This document shows, piece after piece, positions 10,896 through 20,692 of a stretch of DNA of 64,000 nt. The stretch's first letter is position 1, and every line of letters starts with the position of its first letter. The stretch comes from an uncultured Phascolarctobacterium sp. GTDB taxonomy: Bacteria > Bacillota > Negativicutes > Acidaminococcales > Acidaminococcaceae. The DNA lies in NCBI GenBank assembly GCA_949285135.1, contig CASDXO010000006.1, positions 62,001 to 126,000 on the forward strand, in the 5' to 3' direction. The position numbers were made by a program, and so were the translations under genes. Under the pieces are notes generated by a model, which searched no databases, was not told the origin of the DNA, and saw only the letters and a program-made list of their open reading frames with translations.

Positions 10896-12974
10896 TTGTT
10901 CAATATTTTCAACCACAATATGAACTCAAAGGTAGATACGAACTTTTATCTGCTGGTGATTGTAATTCTGGCCGGTGCAGCCTGTTATTTTGAGCCGTAT
11001 TTTATTCCGCCGGCGCTGGTTATTGTTGGAGTGACATACTATTTCAGCCAGAGAAACCGTCTCTACAAGGAAATATTTTTCAGCAGCTATCTTGATAATA
11101 TTATCCGCAATATAGAACGTACCAATCATTTTGCTATCCGTAAGCTGGATATTGGGATGGCCGTATTTTCACGTGAGGGAAAACTGCAGTGGTCTAACGA
11201 CCTGTTCCAGGAATGGGTGGGCAAGAAAAATCTGGAAGGCAGAAAGCTGGAAGATATACTGCCGCTGCAGGAAAATGCTTTTGAGCTGCTCAGTGTCAAA
11301 GACGGAGAAAAAAGTATCCAGATGGATGGCCGGTATTATCTTATGAAATATTACCGGGTGCAGACACAGGAAAAACCGTCTAAAAAAGGCGAAGAAAACA
11401 ATATCAGCGGTCTGATGATCTATATGGAAGATGTGACGGAGTTTGAGCTGCTCAGGCAAAAATATGTCAATGACAGACTGTGCCTTGCCTATGCTCGTTT
11501 TGACAATTATGAAGATGTTACCAGAGGTTTGACGGAAACAAATATTGCTAATATGAACGGTGAGATTAACGAACTGCTGACTAAATGGGTTGCAGAGCAG
11601 CACGGGTTCATCTGCCGTATGAATAAGGAATTAAGCTTAATAGGTTTTTCGCAGTCGGCGGTACTTGATTTAATTGACAGTAAATTTGCCATCTTGGATC
11701 GGGTACGCGAGGTACGTGCCGGTAATAAGATTCCTCCTACTATCAGTATCGGTATTGCCTGTGATGGGCTGACGCTGGAAGATTTAATGCAGAATGCCAA
11801 TAAGGCTCTTTATCTGGCACTGGGACGCGGCGGTGACCAGGCGGTGGTAGCTCAGAACAAGAATATGCAGTTCTTTGGCGGCACCAGCGCAGTTACGGCT
11901 AAAAATACCCGTGTGCGGGCACGTATTGTGGCGCAGACCATCCATGAACAGATTCAGGCGGCAGACAGAGTATTCGTCATGGGTCATGTGATGGAGGATT
12001 ACGATGCGCTGGGTGGCTCTGTGGGTATGGCCAAGCTGGCTTTATCCCTGCAAAAGGAAACCTTTATTGTCATCAGTGGTAAAAGTGATACATACGAGAA
12101 AATCGCTGAGGTGCTCAGTCGCGAAGATGTTAATCTCAATGAAAACGACAGCAGGTATCTGGATATTACAATAGGCGAGGAAGAAGCCTTAAAGTTTATT
12201 ACGCCCAAGAGTCTGCTGATACTTGTAGACCATCACCGTGCCATGATTACGGCCAGTAAGAAAGTGCTGGAAAGCGTGCCTACCAAGATTATTATCGATC
12301 ATCATCGCAGAGCTGAGGATTTAATCAGTGATACGGTGCTGCTGTATCTGGAACCTTCTTCTTCCTCAACCAGCGAGCTGGTAACAGAACTGGTGGGATA
12401 TTTTGATGACAGGCTGGAGATAACACCCGGTGAGGCAACCGTAATGTATGCAGGTATAGTACTGGACACCAAACATTTTGCCGTGCAGACAGGTGCCCGC
12501 ACTTTTGAGGCAGCAGCTCTGCTGCGCCGCAGCGGTGCCAACATAGATATGATAAGGGTGCTGTTTAAAGACGATATGGAATCGCTGCAGCTGCGGGCAA
12601 GGCTTTTGGCCGAAGCAAAGATACCTGCAGCCGGTATTGCGGTTTCAATATATAAAAATGCCAAAAAAGAAATCAGGTCTTCTATCCTGGCGGCGCAGAC
12701 TGCCGATACATTGATTACCATCAACGGTGTTTATGTGGGTATAGCCATTGTAGAATATACGGATGGCTCAGTAGGTGTAAGTGCCCGCAGTGACGGCAGT
12801 GTTAATGTGCAGGTCATCATGGAAGAGCTGGGCGGCGGCGGACATCAGACAGTTGCCGGCGTACAGATTGATAATAAGCGGGCTGCGGATATTGAACCGC
12901 AGATTGTCGCTTTAGCAAAAAAACAGTTAGAGGAGCGAGAGAACAATGAAAGTGATACTGTTACAGGATATTAA
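10896..12974 (+). CDS. gdpP: Cyclic-di-AMP phosphodiesterase GdpP (DHH family)
   Basis: Domains run in the GdpP order: two membrane helices (about residues 18-50), a PAS-like domain (about 75-170), a degenerate GGDEF-like domain (about 175-310), then DHH (GHVMEDYDALGG and LVDHHRA) and DHHA1 (GGGGHQTVAG) catalytic domains. The family hydrolyses c-di-AMP to pApA. I placed the start at a TTG (10896) because GGTGGTG lies 6 nt before it; GTG codons at 10884 and 10887 are alternatives. The GGDEF signature itself is not conserved, as is normal for GdpP. The 3' end overlaps rplI by 29 nt. Confidence 0.9.
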   Translation: MFNIFNHNMNSKVDTNFYLLVIVILAGAACYFEPYFIPPALVIVGVTYYFSQRNRLYKEIFFSSYLDNIIRNIERTNHFAIRKLDIGMAVFSREGKLQWSNDLFQEWVGKKNLEGRKLEDILPLQENAFELLSVKDGEKSIQMDGRYYLMKYYRVQTQEKPSKKGEENNISGLMIYMEDVTEFELLRQKYVNDRLCLAYARFDNYEDVTRGLTETNIANMNGEINELLTKWVAEQHGFICRMNKELSLIGFSQSAVLDLIDSKFAILDRVREVRAGNKIPPTISIGIACDGLTLEDLMQNANKALYLALGRGGDQAVVAQNKNMQFFGGTSAVTAKNTRVRARIVAQTIHEQIQAADRVFVMGHVMEDYDALGGSVGMAKLALSLQKETFIVISGKSDTYEKIAEVLSREDVNLNENDSRYLDITIGEEEALKFITPKSLLILVDHHRAMITASKKVLESVPTKIIIDHHRRAEDLISDTVLLYLEPSSSSTSELVTELVGYFDDRLEITPGEATVMYAGIVLDTKHFAVQTGARTFEAAALLRRSGANIDMIRVLFKDDMESLQLRARLLAEAKIPAAGIAVSIYKNAKKEIRSSILAAQTADTLITINGVYVGIAIVEYTDGSVGVSARSDGSVNVQVIMEELGGGGHQTVAGVQIDNKRAADIEPQIVALAKKQLEERENNESDTVTGY

Positions 12975-13392
12975 AAGTTTAGGTAAAAAAGGTGATATTG
13001 TAGAAACAGCAGAAGGCTATGGCCGTAATTATCTGCTGCCGCGCAAACTGGCCAAAGAGGCTAATGCAGCCAACTTAAATCAGGCCAAGCAGGATAAGGC
13101 AACAGCAGCTCACCGTGCTGCGCAGCAGAAAGACGAAGCTGTGGTACTGGGTGCGCAGGTGCAGAAGGTGGTTGTAAAACTCAAGGTTCGCCTGGGTGAC
13201 AACGGTAAGATGTTTGGTTCTGTTACTTCCAAAGATGTAGCAGAAGCATTGGTAAAACAAACTGGCCTGCAGATTGACCGCCGCAAAGTAGAATTAAAGA
13301 GCGCCATCAAAGGACTGGGAGAATATACGGCAGTGGCTAAGCTGCATACTGATGTGGCTGCTGAATTCAAAGTAGTTGTAGAAGCAGAGTAA
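12946..13392 (+). CDS. rplI: Large ribosomal subunit protein bL9
   Basis: The 148-residue protein has the bL9 signature: MKVILLQDIKSLGKKGDIVE, then AEGYGRNYLLPRKLA, a long central helix (about residues 42-75) and a C-terminal RNA-binding domain (GKMFGSVTSKDV). bL9 binds 23S rRNA near the L1 stalk base. Its ATG lies inside the 3' end of gdpP in another frame with a GGAGCGAGAG ribosome site, a 29-nt overlap that suggests coupled expression. dnaB follows after four bases. Length and motifs are normal. Confidence 0.97.
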   Translation: MKVILLQDIKSLGKKGDIVETAEGYGRNYLLPRKLAKEANAANLNQAKQDKATAAHRAAQQKDEAVVLGAQVQKVVVKLKVRLGDNGKMFGSVTSKDVAEALVKQTGLQIDRRKVELKSAIKGLGEYTAVAKLHTDVAAEFKVVVEAE

Positions 13393-13396
13393 GAAT

Positions 13397-14764
13397 ATGA
13401 TGGAAGAAAAATCACCGAGGGTGCCGCCTCAGAATATCGAAGCGGAGCAGGCCGTTTTATGCGCCATGCTTATCGATAAGGAGGCTATTGCCAGAGTTAC
13501 TGAAATCCTTAACGGGGATGATTTTTACCGGGAAGCTCACAGGGTTATCTTCAATGCGATGACGGAACTGTATGGCAAAAATGAAGCAGTGGACCTGATT
13601 ACGGTTACTGATGCGCTGAAACGTGACAGCAAGCTGGAGGATGTAGGCGGTATTGCTTACATTACTGCGCTGGCAAACGCTGTTCCAACAGCGGCTAATG
13701 TAAAATATCATGCTGATATTGTGGCAGAAAAATCTGTCCTGCGTCAGCTGGTACGTGTTTCTACGGAAATTGCCGCTATGGGTTATGATGCAGATGAAGA
13801 AGTCAATGTACTTATAGATAAAGCTGAAAGCAGGATTCTGGAGATTTCCAACCGCAAGAAAAAGTCTGATTTTACGCCTATCGGCGACGTACTGATGGAA
13901 TCGGTACAGGGAATTGAAAAGCTGCTGAACAATAAGGGCGGTCTTACCGGCCTGCCCACTGGCTTTGTGGATTTGGACAAACTGACTTCCGGACTGCATC
14001 CCTCTGATTTTATTATTCTGGCAGCACGTCCTTCCATGGGCAAAACTGCCTTTGCGCTTAACGTGGTGCAGAATGTAGCGTTGCGCGCGCATAAAAAGAT
14101 AGGCGGCAGTCCGCGTTCTGTGGCTTTCTTCAGTCTGGAAATGAGCAAGGAGCAGCTTGTCAACCGTATGCTTTGTGCTGAGGCCAACATAGATTCTCAG
14201 CGGCTGCGTATCGGTGAAATGGCAGACAAGGACTGGGATGCCTTATGGGGAGCCTGCGACAGTATGAGCAAGGCTAAAATCTATATTGATGATACCCCCG
14301 GCATTACGGCGATGGAGATGCGCAGCCGTGCCAGAAGGCTGAAGGCTGAGCATGGTCTTGATTTAATTGTTGTCGATTATCTGCAGCTGATGCAGGGCAG
14401 CGGTAGACGTAATGTCAGCGGTGACAGGCAGCAGGAAGTTTCGGAAATTTCCCGTTCCCTGAAGGCACTGGCCCGTGAACTGGATGTTCCGGTTATCGCT
14501 CTGTCGCAGCTGAGTCGTGGTGTGGAAGCGCGTCAGGTAAAGCGGCCCATGCTCAGTGACCTGCGTGAATCCGGCTCTCTGGAGCAGGATGCAGATATTG
14601 TTGCTTTCCTGTATCGTGAAGATTATTATAATCCGGAAACAGAAAATAAAAATATTACGGAGCTGATTATAGCTAAGCACCGTAACGGTCCTGTGGATAC
14701 AGTAAATCTGTTTTTCCACAAACAGTTTACAAAGTTTGTTGGTTTTGCCAAAAGGCAGGAATAG
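13397..14764 (+). CDS. dnaB: Replicative DNA helicase DnaB
   Basis: The 455-residue protein has the N-terminal DnaB domain (NIEAEQAVLCAMLID near residues 13-27), a linker, and a RecA-like helicase core with Walker A ARPSMGKT at 210-217, the LSLEM-type SLEMSKEQLVNRM segment, Walker B LIVVDYLQLM and the arginine-finger region SLEQDADIVAFLYRE. It unwinds DNA ahead of the replication fork as a hexamer. No intein is present; the motifs are contiguous. It ends an operon with yybS, gdpP and rplI and is followed by a terminator. Confidence 0.97.
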   Translation: MMEEKSPRVPPQNIEAEQAVLCAMLIDKEAIARVTEILNGDDFYREAHRVIFNAMTELYGKNEAVDLITVTDALKRDSKLEDVGGIAYITALANAVPTAANVKYHADIVAEKSVLRQLVRVSTEIAAMGYDADEEVNVLIDKAESRILEISNRKKKSDFTPIGDVLMESVQGIEKLLNNKGGLTGLPTGFVDLDKLTSGLHPSDFIILAARPSMGKTAFALNVVQNVALRAHKKIGGSPRSVAFFSLEMSKEQLVNRMLCAEANIDSQRLRIGEMADKDWDALWGACDSMSKAKIYIDDTPGITAMEMRSRARRLKAEHGLDLIVVDYLQLMQGSGRRNVSGDRQQEVSEISRSLKALARELDVPVIALSQLSRGVEARQVKRPMLSDLRESGSLEQDADIVAFLYREDYYNPETENKNITELIIAKHRNGPVDTVNLFFHKQFTKFVGFAKRQE

Positions 14765-15088: not shown

Positions 15089-16381
15089 ATGATTGAGCGT
15101 TATACTCATCCTGAAATGGGTAATATCTGGACTTTGGAAAATGAATTCCGAACAATGCTGAAGGTTGAAATCCTAGCCTGCGAAGCAATGAACAAGCTGG
15201 GCATCGTACCGGATGATGCGTTAAAGGATATTCAGACCAAAGCTGATTTTCGTATTGAACGCATCAAGGAGATTGAAGCCGTAACCAATCACGATATTAT
15301 TGCTTTTCTGACCAATGTTGCTGAATATGTAGGTGATGCTTCCAAATATATTCATAAAGGGCTTACATCCAGTGACGTAAAAGATACTGCGTTGTGCTAT
15401 ATGATGGTGCAGGCTGCAGACCTTCTTCTCAGCCATCTGGAAAAATTCCATGCAGTGCTGAAACGCCGTGCAGCGGAACATAAACATACTATTATGATTG
15501 GCCGTACACATGGCATCCATGCGGAACCAATGACTTTTGGCCTTAAATTTGCGTTGTGGATGGATGAAACAGAAAGAAATATCGCCCGTCTGCAACAGGC
15601 GCGTGAGTTTGTTGCCGTTGGCAAGCTGTCCGGTGCCGTAGGTACCTATTCTAATATTGACCCTTATGTTGAACAGTATGTATGTGAAAAACTGGGGTTA
15701 AAACCCGCACGTCTGGCAACTCAGGTTATCCAGCGTGACCGCCATGCTGATTTCATTACAACGCTGGCGATTATTGGTTCTTCGTTGGACAAGATGGCTA
15801 CCGAAGTGCGCAACCTGCAGCGTACCGATATCCGCGAGGTTGAAGAATATTTTGCTCCCGGACAGAAGGGATCTTCTGCCATGCCGCATAAGCGCAATCC
15901 TATCACCTGTGAGAAAGTTTCCGGTATGGCAAGACTGCTGCGTGGTTATGCTATTGCAGCACTGGAAGATATTACTTTGTGGCATGAAAGAGATATTTCC
16001 CATTCTTCCGTAGAGCGTGTTATCCTGCCGGATGCAACTATTGCCCTTGACCATATGCTGAGAAAATTTACTAATATCGTAGATAAACTGCTTGTGTATC
16101 CGGAAGCCATGCTGGCTAACATGAATAAGACCGGCGGCCTGATTTTCAGCCAGAACCTTCTGATTGCCCTGGTAAGCAAAGGCGTATTGCGCGAGGATGC
16201 CTATAAATGGGTACAGCGCAATGCCATGGCACGCTGGCTGGAAGGTGCAGATTTCAAAACCAATGTGGAAAAAGATCCTGACATTAAAAAATATCTGACC
16301 GATGCGGAAATTGAGCATTGTTTTGATCCGAAACCAATGTTGAGAAACATTGATCTGATTATGTCAAGATTTGGATTATAA
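15089..16381 (+). CDS. purB: Adenylosuccinate lyase
   Basis: PurB cleaves fumarate from SAICAR and from adenylosuccinate in purine synthesis. The fumarase-superfamily signature GSSAMPHKRNP is at residues 261-271, with catalytic His141 in GRTHG and the TSSDVKDT substrate loop near 93-100. The 430 residues match the short Gram-positive type. A GGGGGG-like ribosome site precedes the ATG. purA follows after 17 nt, so the two genes likely share a transcript and together give AMP from IMP. Confidence 0.97.
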   Translation: MIERYTHPEMGNIWTLENEFRTMLKVEILACEAMNKLGIVPDDALKDIQTKADFRIERIKEIEAVTNHDIIAFLTNVAEYVGDASKYIHKGLTSSDVKDTALCYMMVQAADLLLSHLEKFHAVLKRRAAEHKHTIMIGRTHGIHAEPMTFGLKFALWMDETERNIARLQQAREFVAVGKLSGAVGTYSNIDPYVEQYVCEKLGLKPARLATQVIQRDRHADFITTLAIIGSSLDKMATEVRNLQRTDIREVEEYFAPGQKGSSAMPHKRNPITCEKVSGMARLLRGYAIAALEDITLWHERDISHSSVERVILPDATIALDHMLRKFTNIVDKLLVYPEAMLANMNKTGGLIFSQNLLIALVSKGVLREDAYKWVQRNAMARWLEGADFKTNVEKDPDIKKYLTDAEIEHCFDPKPMLRNIDLIMSRFGL

Positions 16382-16398
16382 GATAAGGGGAGACTATT

Positions 16399-17688
16399 AT
16401 GTCATCTGTAATTGTTTTAGGCGCCCAGTGGGGCGACGAAGGAAAAGGCAAGATCGTGGATTATCTGGCTCAGCGTGCTGATGCCGTAGTGCGCTATTCC
16501 GGCGGCTCTAATGCCGGTCATACCGTAGTAGTTGATAATGTATCCTACAAGCTCAGACTGCTGCCTTCCGGCGTGCTGTTTAAAGATAAGGTAAATGTAC
16601 TGGGCAACGGTGTCGTTATCAATCCAGGTGTTGTACTGCAGGAAATCGAAGGCATGAAGGAAAAAGGTATCGCCTGCGATAATCTGAAGATTTCTGACCG
16701 CGCGCATGTTGTACTGCCCTATCATCAGCGCCTTGACGAGCTGCAGGAGAATGCTCTTGGACAGAATAAGATTGGTACCACCAAGGGTGGTATCGGCCCC
16801 TGCTATATGGATAAGGTTGCCCGTGTCGGCATTCGTGTCTGCGATCTGATGGAACCGGAAACCTTTGCAGCTAAACTGAAAATTAATCTGGAAGCTAAAA
16901 ACCAGATTATCACCAAGATTTATGGCGGCGAACCTTTTGTTTATGAAGAAGTGCTGGAAGAATATCTCGGCTATGCGGAAAAACTGCGTCCATATGTAAC
17001 TGATACCGGTGTTATCATGGATGAGCTGTTTGAAGCTGATAAAAAAGTATTGTTTGAAGGTGCTCAGGCTACTTTCCTTGATATTGACCATGGTACTTAT
17101 CCGTATGTTACCAGCTCCAATCCGACTGCCGGTAATGCCTGCACAGGCAGCGGCATCGGTCCCAGAAATATTGACCATGTAGTAGGTGTTGTTAAAGCTT
17201 ATACTACCCGTGTAGGCGAAGGCCCGTTTATTACTGAGCTGCATGATACTGATGGCCCCGGCAATCAGATTCGTGAAACTGCCCATGAATATGGCACAGT
17301 TACCGGTCGTCCCCGTCGTTGTGGCTGGCTTGATGCATTTATGCTTCATTATAGTGCCCGTTTAAACAGTCTGGATTATCTGGCTATTACCAGGTTGGAT
17401 ATTCTTGACCAGATGCCTGTTATTAAAATGTGCGTAGGCTATAAAATTGATGGTGAAGTCCTGAAACGTATTCCGGCAAGTCTGAATGTACTGGCAAAAG
17501 CTGAACCGATTTATGAAGAATTTGAAGGTTGGATGACTGATATCAGCGCAATTCGTGAATATGATGAACTGCCTGAAAATGCAAAAAAATATCTGCAGCG
17601 CATCAGCGAAGTTGCCGGTGTAGAGCTGGGTATTGTTTCCGTAGGCCCTAACCGTGAACAAACCATTGTTTTAAAAGAATTACTGTAA
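16399..17688 (+). CDS. purA: Adenylosuccinate synthetase
   Basis: PurA joins IMP and aspartate using GTP, the first step from IMP to AMP. The GTP-binding GDEGKGK loop lies at residues 12-18, the SGGSNAGHT IMP loop near 34-42, GTTKGGIGPCY follows near 126-136, and the TTRVGEGPF active-site segment is present. The 429 residues are a normal length. An AGGGGAG ribosome site precedes the ATG. It follows purB closely and ends at a strong terminator. Confidence 0.97.
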   Translation: MSSVIVLGAQWGDEGKGKIVDYLAQRADAVVRYSGGSNAGHTVVVDNVSYKLRLLPSGVLFKDKVNVLGNGVVINPGVVLQEIEGMKEKGIACDNLKISDRAHVVLPYHQRLDELQENALGQNKIGTTKGGIGPCYMDKVARVGIRVCDLMEPETFAAKLKINLEAKNQIITKIYGGEPFVYEEVLEEYLGYAEKLRPYVTDTGVIMDELFEADKKVLFEGAQATFLDIDHGTYPYVTSSNPTAGNACTGSGIGPRNIDHVVGVVKAYTTRVGEGPFITELHDTDGPGNQIRETAHEYGTVTGRPRRCGWLDAFMLHYSARLNSLDYLAITRLDILDQMPVIKMCVGYKIDGEVLKRIPASLNVLAKAEPIYEEFEGWMTDISAIREYDELPENAKKYLQRISEVAGVELGIVSVGPNREQTIVLKELL

Positions 17689-17863: not shown

Positions 17864-19054
17864 ATGGAAAGAAAAGTTGGCACCGTTGTAAGAGGCATTC
17901 GCTGTCCCATTATCAGAGAAGGAGATGATGTGGCAGCTATTGTTGTAGACAGTGTCATGGCTGCAGCGCAGGCGGAAGGCTTTGCACTGCGTGACAGGGA
18001 CGTTATCTCTGTAACAGAATCTATTGTAGCGCGGGCACAGGGAAATTATGTTTCTGTTGATACCATTGCTGCCGATGTCCGTAATAAGCTGGGCGGAGAA
18101 ACTATTGGCGTTATTTTTCCGATTTTATCACGCAACAGGTTTTCTGTCTGCCTGAAAGGTATTGCCAGAGGTGCGAAGAAAATTGTGCTGATGCTCAGCT
18201 ATCCCAGCGATGAGGTGGGTAATGCACTGCTTAATTATGATCAGTTAGATGCCGCAGGCATTAATCCTTACAGTGATGTGCTGACTTTGGAGCAGTATCG
18301 GGAGCTGTTTGGAGAAAACAAGCATGAATTTACCGGTGTGGATTATGTTGCATATTATGGTAATTTAATTCGTGATGAAGGAGCAGAAGTAGAAATTATT
18401 TTTGCTAACCAGGTAAAGACTATTCTAAAATATACTGACTGTGTATTGACCTGTGATATTCATACGCGTGCACGTACCAAACGCTTGCTGCAGGAGGCTG
18501 GTGCAAGGATAGTATGCGGTCTGGATGATATTATGACTGCATCTGTAGACGGCAGCGGCTTTAACAGCCGTTATGGTTTATTGGGTTCCAATAAATCTAC
18601 TACTGAGCAGGTAAAGCTGTTTCCGCGTGAATGCCAGGATTTGGTGACCGATATCCAGAACAGGATTCTGCAGCTGACTGATAAGCATGTAGAGGTAATG
18701 GTGTATGGCGACGGGGCATTTAAAGATCCACAGGGTAAGATTTGGGAGCTGGCTGACCCCGTTGTATCTCCTGCGTTTACTCCCGGACTGGTAGGTACGC
18801 CTAATGAGTTAAAACTCAAATACCTGGCTGACAATGATTTTAAAAATCTCAGCGGCAAGGAATTACAGGCTGCGATTGCCAAACGTATCAAAGAAAAAGA
18901 TGGCAGCCTGGTGGGAAGTATGGTGTCGCAGGGGACAACTCCCAGACAGCTTACTGATTTAATTGGTTCTTTGTGCGATTTAACCAGTGGTTCCGGTGAT
19001 AAAGGTACGCCGGTGGTATTGGTGCAGGGATATTTTGATAATTTTACTGATTAA
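17864..19054 (+). CDS. CofE-like ligase (F420-0:gamma-glutamyl ligase family)
   Basis: The 396-residue protein resembles the F420_ligase (CofE) family: GTVVRGIRCPIIREGDDVA at the start, then RDRDVISVTESIVARAQGN, a recognisable CofE segment, and later LSRNRFSVCLKGIARGAKKI. It is longer than archaeal CofE (about 250 residues), with an extended C-terminal half. True CofE adds glutamates to coenzyme F420-0, but Firmicutes of this type are not known to make F420, so the substrate is unclear. A GGAGG ribosome site precedes the ATG. It is a single gene between purA and tRNA-Lys. Confidence 0.82.
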   Translation: MERKVGTVVRGIRCPIIREGDDVAAIVVDSVMAAAQAEGFALRDRDVISVTESIVARAQGNYVSVDTIAADVRNKLGGETIGVIFPILSRNRFSVCLKGIARGAKKIVLMLSYPSDEVGNALLNYDQLDAAGINPYSDVLTLEQYRELFGENKHEFTGVDYVAYYGNLIRDEGAEVEIIFANQVKTILKYTDCVLTCDIHTRARTKRLLQEAGARIVCGLDDIMTASVDGSGFNSRYGLLGSNKSTTEQVKLFPRECQDLVTDIQNRILQLTDKHVEVMVYGDGAFKDPQGKIWELADPVVSPAFTPGLVGTPNELKLKYLADNDFKNLSGKELQAAIAKRIKEKDGSLVGSMVSQGTTPRQLTDLIGSLCDLTSGSGDKGTPVVLVQGYFDNFTD

Positions 19055-19071
19055 GAAAAATAAAAAACTAC

Positions 19072-19100
19072 TTGACAAATATAGTGGGTATAAGTATAAT
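19072..19100 (+). promoter_or_regulatory. Consensus promoter of tRNA-Lys
   Basis: TTGACA (19072-19077) and TATAAT (19095-19100) are perfect matches separated by 17 bp, about 30 nt before the tRNA. Confidence 0.93.
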
Positions 19101-19129
19101 AATATTGTTGCTGATACAGCAACTGATGT

Positions 19130-19205
19130 GATCCACTAGCTCAGTCGGTAGAGCACCTGACTTTTAATCAGGGTGTCCCGCGTTCGAGTCGCGGGTGGAT
19201 CACCA
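19130..19205 (+). tRNA. tRNA-Lys (anticodon UUU)
   Basis: A full 76-nt cloverleaf is visible: the acceptor stem pairs GATCCAC with GTGGATC, the D arm holds AGCTC and GAGC, the anticodon stem CCTGA/TCAGG encloses CTTTTAA (anticodon TTT), and the T arm carries GTTCGAGTC. The discriminator A and the CCA end are encoded. It has its own consensus promoter and terminator, so it is a single-gene unit. Confidence 0.97.
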
Positions 19206-19228
19206 TTTTTATTTTAACGACAAATACT

Positions 19229-19258
19229 AAAGTCCGGCTTGATGGAGCCGGACTTTTT
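19229..19258 (+). terminator. Terminator of tRNA-Lys
   Basis: An 11-bp GC-rich perfect stem (19229-19239 with 19245-19255) is followed by TTTTTCTTT. Confidence 0.9.
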
Positions 19259-19260
19259 CT

Positions 19261-19330
19261 TTATGCTCAGAGATAGTTATACACATGGTTATCAACACTG
19301 TGGATAAGTTATTGTGGATAGAGTGGATAA
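19261..19330. promoter_or_regulatory. Cluster of DnaA-box-like sites
   Basis: Six 9-mers match the DnaA box TTATNCACA exactly or with one mismatch within 70 bp. Forward: 19261-19269 (TTATGCTCA), 19277-19285 (TTATACACA, exact), 19289-19297 (TTATCAACA). Reverse: 19299-19307 (TGTGGATAA, exact), 19313-19321 (TGTGGATAG), 19322-19330 (AGTGGATAA). The sites are arranged as three forward followed by three reverse, between two terminators in a non-coding gap. No dnaA or dnaN is adjacent. Confidence 0.7.
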
Positions 19331-19333
19331 AAG

Positions 19334-19369
19334 AAAAGCACCGTAAATTTTGGGTTTACGGTGCTTTTT
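19334..19369 (-). terminator. Terminator of the hem operon
   Basis: A 14-bp perfect stem (19334-19347 with 19355-19368) with flanking A/T runs lies just after the hemL stop on the minus strand. Confidence 0.85.
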
Positions 19370-19378
19370 GTCTGAATT

Positions 19379-20677
19379 TTATTGGTGGGCGGCTTTAACT
19401 GCTTTAAAGGCAACGGTTGCCGCGTCAATAGTTTTCTGGATATCTTCCGGAGAATGAGCCAGAGAGAGGAAATTAGTTTCAAACTGGGACGGAGGCAGAT
19501 AGATACCTTGTTCCAGCATACTGTGGAAATAAATTTTAAAAGCTTCCAAATCGCAGGCTGCTGCAGAAGCATAATCAGTAACAGGTTTGTCGCTGAAAAA
19601 AACTGTAAACATGCTGCCCAGACGATGAACCTGTACGGGAACGCCTGTCTGCAGAGCCGCTTTTTCCAGCCCGCCGGCAAGGATAGCGGTCATGCTTTCC
19701 AGTTTTTCACAGACTTTGTTTTCCTCCATATAAGTGAGAGCGGCGATGCCGGCTGCCATAGCCAGCGGATTGCCGCTAAGGGTGCCAGCCTGATACATAG
19801 GGCCTGCAGGAGATACCATTTCCATAATTTCGCGTTTACCGCCGTAAGCTGCAACAGGCAGGCCGCCGCCGATAACTTTGCCAAGGCAGGTAATATCAGG
19901 GTCAATATCATACAGGGACTGGCTACCGCCCTGAGCGCTGCGGAAGCCGCTCATAACTTCGTCGCAGATGAGCAGGCTACCGTGCTCTTTGGTAAGCTTA
20001 CGTACAGCCTCCAGATAACCTTCATGGGGCAGGACAAGACCCATATTGCCAGGTGTAGGTTCCAAGATTACTGCGGCAATTTCCTGACCGCGTTCGGCAA
20101 ATACCTGTTCCAGTGCGGGCAGGTTGTTAAAGGGAACGGTAATGGTGGTGGAAGCTACAGCTTTAGGAACACCGGGGCTGTCAGGTACACCGAAAGTTGC
20201 TGCACCGCTGCCGGCTTTAACCAGCAGGCTGTCATGGTGGCCATGATAGCAGCCGATAAATTTAACAATGCAGTCACGTCCGGTATAAGCACGTGCCAGG
20301 CGCAGAGCACTCATGGTGGCTTCGGTACCGCTGTTAACCATGCGCACCATTTCCATGGAAGGAACAAGACGGCAGACTATTTTTGCCAGTTCGCTTTCTG
20401 CCAGCGTGGGTGCACCATAAGAAGTGCCTTTATCGGCAGCAGCTTTGATGGCGCGGGTTACGCAGTCAGGTACATGTCCCATCAGAAGCGGACCATATGA
20501 TAAAACGTAATCTATGTATTCATTGCCGTCGATATCATAAATCTTACTACCCTTGCCGCCGGCAATAAACGGCGGTACGCCGCCGACACTGCGGAAAGAA
20601 CGTACGGGGCTGTTGACACCGCCGGGTATATATTGACGGGCTTCAGTAAAAGCCGCCTGTGATTTTGTTAATTTCAT
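19379..20677 (-). CDS. hemL: Glutamate-1-semialdehyde 2,1-aminomutase
   Basis: HemL converts glutamate-1-semialdehyde to 5-aminolevulinate with PLP. The PLP lysine is Lys267 in [11 protein letters not shown], with [10 protein letters not shown] just before it and YHGHHDS earlier. The ATG at 20677 is chosen because GGAG lies about 7 nt upstream; the ORF extends five codons further without a better site. The 432 residues fit the family. It is the last gene of the tetrapyrrole operon, 15 nt after hemB. Confidence 0.96.
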
Positions 20678-20692
20678 GCAGTTTCTCCTCAA

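Follow-up and report, generated by a model that had tools for sequence, protein, structure and literature searches.

The closest described counterparts of the locus studied here are the DnaA-box clusters (DBCs) of Bacillus subtilis, which are non-coding, hold several close boxes, lie outside oriC and occur several to a genome (PMC4447404). A strong DnaA-binding cluster is present at gcp, and the gcp–ydiF DBC is flanked on each side by the 3′ end of a gene (PMC4447404). According to PMC5295017, removal of six clusters leads to early initiation, an effect that is strong only with all of them gone and is partly relieved when one is restored. Two further systems are described in Escherichia coli. 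The datA region is situated 3′ of the tRNA genes glyVXY and converges with queG. It has a tRNA terminator and DnaA boxes in series and is controlled by read-through (PMC10950094); it requires IHF and is inhibited when moved into a strongly transcribed region (PMC5742627). The DARS1 and DARS2 loci have equal box spacing, with box I opposite to boxes II and III (PMC5742627). A 2026 review (PMC13220808) states that B. subtilis lacks datA and DARS loci, and that it is not known whether this species has any regulator balancing ATP-bound against ADP-bound DnaA.

We analysed a window of 64,000 nucleotides (C6:62001–126000; the term denotes the whole stretch of DNA), in which a cluster of DnaA-box-like sites separates tRNA-Lys from hemL. 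Judged by gene content and sequence, the organism probably belongs to the Negativicutes, close to Acidaminococcus and Phascolarctobacterium. Like the B. subtilis DBCs, the cluster is non-coding, holds several close boxes, lies outside oriC and is one of several in its genome, and like the gcp–ydiF DBC it has the 3′ end of a gene on either side; unlike them, it is absent from the B. subtilis sites in Table 1 of PMC4447404. The DBC kind itself is already known, and the hemL cluster is a new, lineage-specific site. The features are given below in window positions.

12946–13392, + strand: open reading frame that we take, from its sequence, to be rplI
13397–14764, + strand: dnaB, replicative helicase (profile match)
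17864–19054, + strand: protein with an F420_ligase domain (CofE-like), the upstream neighbour
19072–19100, + strand: promoter of tRNA-Lys, perfect consensus TTGACA-17-TATAAT
19130–19205, + strand: tRNA-Lys (TTT)
19229–19256, + strand: intrinsic terminator of the tRNA-Lys unit, with a 12-bp stem and a T-rich tail
19261–19269, + strand: DnaA-box-like site 1, TTATGCTCA, one mismatch; absent from the sister genome G001
19277–19285, + strand: DnaA box 2, TTATACACA, perfect; TTATCAACA in G001
19289–19297, + strand: DnaA box 3, TTATCAACA, one mismatch; left half of the inverted core
19299–19307, − strand: DnaA box 4, TTATCCACA, perfect; right half of the inverted core, with a 1-nt spacer to box 3
19313–19321, − strand: DnaA box 5, CTATCCACA, one mismatch; unchanged in G001
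19322–19330, − strand: DnaA-box-like site 6, TTATCCACT, one mismatch; two mismatches in G001
19334–19368, − strand: intrinsic terminator of hemL, a strong hairpin on both strands
19379–20692, − strand: hemL, glutamate-1-semialdehyde aminomutase, convergent with tRNA-Lys

A scan with the consensus TTATNCACA, allowing at most one mismatch, recovered the six sites at 19261–19330 just as the earlier note had described them, three forward followed by three reverse; two of the six match perfectly and the other four differ at one position. The number of such sites in the window as a whole was not in excess (69 observed against 68.8 expected in 64,000 nt at ≤1 mismatch), and the signal is therefore one of clustering. 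No second stretch with six sites in 70 bp was found on contig C6 (178,638 bp), where only three places hold at least four sites in 120 bp: 16305–16428, 81261–81330 (the hemL cluster) and 137766–137871. Sixty simulated contigs of the same length, generated by an order-3 Markov chain, reached a maximum of two sites per 70 bp in 52 runs and three in eight, and none of the 60 contained a four-site cluster in 120 bp. The six-site clustering is thus far above chance, in agreement with the low chance probability proposed earlier. Its inverted core is TTATCAACA-C-TGTGGATAA, and the inverted-pair offsets across the cluster are 10, 22, 24, 33, 36, 38, 45, 52 and 61. Because G001 does not retain site 1 and has a degraded site 6, four sites rather than six are well supported; judged from the comparison, site 1 (TTATGCTCA) is probably incidental.

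The gene order upstream of the cluster is rplI (named from its sequence), dnaB, purB, purA, the CofE-like gene and tRNA-Lys; downstream, hemL converges on it and is followed by hemB. The earlier note had reported rplI–dnaB nearby, of which dnaB was confirmed by profile and rplI presumably corresponds to the open reading frame read as such. It had also placed the sites beside tRNA-Lys in a non-coding gap between terminators, and this description holds: tRNA-Lys occupies 19130–19205, the cluster fills the gap from the tRNA-Lys terminator to the hemL terminator, and the flanking hairpins (19229–19256 and 19334–19368) gave fold z-scores of −6.5, −6.2 and −7.7 against shuffles, all −6.2 or lower. 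The RNA structure of the 70-bp cluster itself did not exceed that of shuffles (z 0.66). Within 18900–19700 the sole promoter-like site was that of tRNA-Lys, which makes a transcription-factor role at the hemL cluster unlikely. A phage source for the site was considered and set aside: with 19131–19400 as query, a phage collection gave 307 matching records, and the 20 listed cover the tRNA part only. The CofE-like neighbour (17864–19054) was tried as a conservation marker and proved not to be a useful one, since just one of 80 loci from named genomes of many different Firmicutes (L080) had any four-box cluster and that locus lacks hemL. As a separate observation, relatives of this protein from a range of Firmicutes (80 loci) fall within 77–84% identity, an unusually even level.

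About 65 kb of one chromosome arm separates the hemL cluster from oriC. The origin was located on the same contig by the following features.

C6:15070–16188: open reading frame that we take to be dnaN
C6:16432–17820: dnaA (profile TIGR00362)
C6:18246: 44-aa open reading frame, presumably rpmH

GC skew on C6 is negative until about 16 kb and then positive almost throughout, across the cluster and further, with the sign switching at dnaA–dnaN. The distance from the cluster to the dnaA–dnaN gap is about 64.8 kb. The check that the earlier note had proposed, to locate dnaA and the skew minimum, thus places both away from the cluster, and its remark that no dnaA/dnaN is adjacent was correct. In the dnaA–dnaN gap, two boxes are perfect and several have one mismatch; the box 3 variant TTATCAACA occurs twice there, and the boxes adjoin a TAG-repeat stretch (GTAGTAGACGTAGTAGTAATAG).

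Conservation was assessed by aligning the window genome (G000) with one congener, G001. The tRNA-Lys–hemL gap of G001 also holds the cluster, there with four sites at ≤1 mismatch. Boxes 2–6 are identical at 42 of 45 positions against 20 of 39 other block columns (Fisher p = 1.3 × 10⁻⁵), in an alignment whose flanks are AT-rich and gapped and with gaps counted as differences. This sequence comparison indicates that the boxes are preferentially retained in the congener while their surroundings drift. Thirty hemL loci were then read from the 34 genomes of the family with an orthologue listed. The cluster was found at four (G000, G001, G038 and G040) and was absent at 26, and is therefore not essential to the clade. 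In G038 and G040 (genus g15) the gene facing hemL encodes a rubrerythrin and is not tRNA-Lys, and the cluster 3′ of hemL shares the inverted core. G037, which belongs to the G038 genus, has no cluster at its hemL, and carries one with the hemL-type core between asparaginase and solute-binding-protein genes (C2, L190:5370–5432); the next spacing (23) is also as in the hemL type. The G037 cluster looks as if it had moved from or to hemL. In G028, tRNA-Lys adjoins hemL without any boxes. The presence at four of 30 hemL loci, the differing neighbours and the location elsewhere in G037 together indicate a lineage-specific element whose neighbours have changed. Common to five genomes of two genera (G000, G001, G037, G038 and G040) is TTATNNACA-N-TGTGGATAA, inverted boxes with a 1-nt spacer. 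Loss from close relatives, which the earlier note had counted against its reading, is therefore seen in part: the one congener keeps the sites, but most of the family (26 of 30 hemL loci) lacks them.

Whole-genome pattern scans, which target pairs of near-perfect boxes and could miss looser clusters, identified three extra-oriC clusters in G000 beyond the one at hemL.

C6:137766–137871: third cluster on C6, beside a permease gene
C7:74820–74946: gcp cluster, seven boxes in one orientation, directly 3′ of tsaD (gcp)
C13:2573–2879: uxaE array, about 13 boxes between rarD-like (EamA) and uxaE-like genes, upstream of the uxaE-like gene

Two more tandem pairs of imperfect boxes were noticed on C4 and C11 of the same genome. 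The C6:137766–137871 cluster is also present in G001 (L187:7758–7800), where it has two perfect boxes between permease and hsp20 and is better preserved. For the gcp cluster, a tsaD match was present in 355 genomes; we read 70 of these loci, 37 in the family and 33 selected elsewhere in the class, and scored a cluster where at least four boxes with ≤1 mismatch lay within 150 bp just 3′ of tsaD. It was present in 26 of the 70 loci, 19 of 37 within the family and seven of 33 outside it, the latter belonging to six families (G061, G079, G082, G084, G292, G309 and G314); in family f20 none of the 19 tsaD loci read had it. Box spacing is strongly kept, for example at 18, 30, 39, 82, 94 and 103 from the gene end, all on one strand. 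Since it occurs both in B. subtilis and in several of the class's families, the gcp site may be an old control site. We read it as an old extra-oriC cluster that Bacillus has in common with this class; an independent origin at the same gene is also conceivable.

The hemL cluster might instead be a second or alternative replication origin, in line with the unusual origin element that the earlier note had offered as an option. Six boxes in 70 bp, with sequences identical to those of oriC, fit that proposal. Against it, the skew stays positive across the cluster and changes sign only at about 16 kb of C6, where a normal dnaN–dnaA–rpmH origin is found, and no dnaA/dnaN or other initiator gene adjoins the cluster. 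Unlike oriC with its TAG-repeat stretch, the cluster region (C6:81201–81400) contains no TAGTAG on either strand; a stricter DnaA-trio scan was weak there, and is uninformative because it found nothing even at oriC, missing the repeat seen there by eye. We therefore reject a second origin on GC skew and gene context and regard it as extremely improbable. The cluster could also be a relic, or a set of drifting sites without present function, as its lineage-specific distribution and the two of six sites that are no longer at ≤1 mismatch in G001 would allow. Box positions, however, change far less than their neighbours, and the 1-nt spacer of the inverted core is unchanged across five genomes from two genera, so that decay appears an unlikely account.

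Two further explanations draw on the transcription units around the site. The E. coli datA lies about 470 kb from oriC, against about 65 kb for the hemL cluster, and shares its anatomy of boxes 3′ of tRNA genes and a convergent protein gene. If the hemL cluster worked like datA, a DnaA complex would promote DnaA-ATP hydrolysis and would be tuned by tRNA read-through. The serial arrangement of tRNA terminator and boxes supports such a parallel, as does a tandem 12-bp spacing common to both (19277/19289 here; 2233/2245 in L235, where 2233 qualifies only at two mismatches). The box arrangement of the datA region is nevertheless not found at hemL, since overall box order and spacing differ, and a strong-looking terminator separates tRNA-Lys from the cluster; datA depends on IHF, and for B. 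subtilis the review leaves it open whether any regulator of the ATP/ADP balance exists. Taken together, a datA-like function seems quite improbable. The position exactly between two terminators would also suit a DnaA roadblock or insulator acting on converging transcription rather than on initiation, but both terminators look strong on their own and the tRNA-Lys–hemL gap of G028 exists without boxes, which leaves this role with very little probability.

The best-supported reading is that of a Bacillus-type extra-oriC DnaA-box cluster that would draw DnaA from oriC, and we hold it with moderate confidence. The boxes are clustered beyond chance outside oriC, lie in non-coding, intergenic DNA and are retained in the congener, in a genome that also has the gcp cluster; the site is one of a set of four, some of them origin-proximal (hemL at about 65 kb and C6:137766–137871 at about 121 kb from oriC). 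Of the two interpretations in the earlier note, the DBC-like titrating cluster is thus favoured by the set of four, the kept boxes and the shared gcp site, and the origin element is not. By analogy with B. subtilis we infer DnaA binding, its cooperativity and a titration effect at the hemL cluster. Cooperative DnaA binding would be organised around the inverted core TTATCAACA-C-TGTGGATAA, which is flanked by additional boxes at distances of 12 bp and 14 bp. Being about 65 kb from oriC, the cluster would be duplicated early, soon after initiation, and its fresh copies would hold DnaA that otherwise refills oriC; free DnaA would fall and the next initiation would be delayed. The two terminators and the converging units would keep RNA polymerase off the sites and so protect the complex. 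The effect of the single hemL site may be small. A search for the B. subtilis regulator YabA, with controls that were positive in B. subtilis and Lactococcus, gave no match in the window's genome. A genome without detected YabA offers a new lineage for titration tests, and the four clusters are defined, removable elements with which to test titration, bearing on how replication is timed outside the two model species.

DARS geometry was also compared. The E. coli DARS1 and DARS2 cores resemble the hemL cluster in having clustered intergenic boxes outside oriC and an inverted pair, but their layout is + 14 − 12 −, whereas the hemL cluster has no inverted pair 14 apart. A three-box core with box I inverted and spacings of 14 and 12 is thus not present at hemL, and this candidate was rejected for the site. 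The layout does occur upstream of uxaE. Of 31 uxaE loci of the family taken, 30 had readable upstream sequence, and 29 of these carry, between the rarD-like and uxaE-like genes, at least six boxes within 600 bp upstream of the gene, in arrays of 6–15 boxes; the exception, G058, has one box. In 13 of the 30 loci (genera g1, g9, g10 and g15), three boxes with ≤1 mismatch followed by a weaker fourth show the + 14 − 12 − layout, with the same orientation and offsets as both E. coli cores. Across the class, the pattern was found at 20 places in 19 of 380 genomes and at none when read backwards. The uxaE site accounts for twelve of these places and the dnaA–dnaN gap for two (G024 C48 and G135); two more are beside other genes (genus g2) and four elsewhere. 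Because of the dnaA–dnaN matches the layout is not specific to DARS, and since in genera g4, g6, g14, g17 and g18 the first box of the uxaE array is not at 14, a DARS-like reading of uxaE is a minority view. In G034, an incomplete genome, two uxaE loci and two dnaA genes were seen (C81, C99, C179 and C214); two species may be mixed in it.

A broader proposal is that the family runs a multi-site circuit, in which the hemL, gcp and hsp20 clusters would titrate DnaA and would be countered by nucleotide exchange at a DARS-like site upstream of uxaE. Both known kinds of control would thus be combined, and the uxaE site would be the first of its kind outside Proteobacteria. The hemL cluster, behind a tRNA as datA is, would serve as the brake and uxaE as the accelerator. 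We put this forward as a speculative idea that is unlikely to hold. If true, it would place a DARS-like site in relatives of B. subtilis, where DARS is stated to be absent. Among the titles and abstracts listed from an open-literature library, none reported DARS in Firmicutes or DnaA-box sites in Negativicutes/Acidaminococcus. The wider pattern, with a gcp site shared across the class and a DARS-like spacing at uxaE, is of greater interest than the hemL site itself.

Two observations concern genus g2. In four of its genomes (G002, G005, G006 and G010) the origin carries two dnaA-type genes separated by about 3 kb, and inverted box pairs occur both between these genes and around them. A DnaA-box pair also lies about 10 kb from dnaA (L260:5606–5751, G002 C1), and recurs in G003–G008 and G010 at a nearly constant distance.
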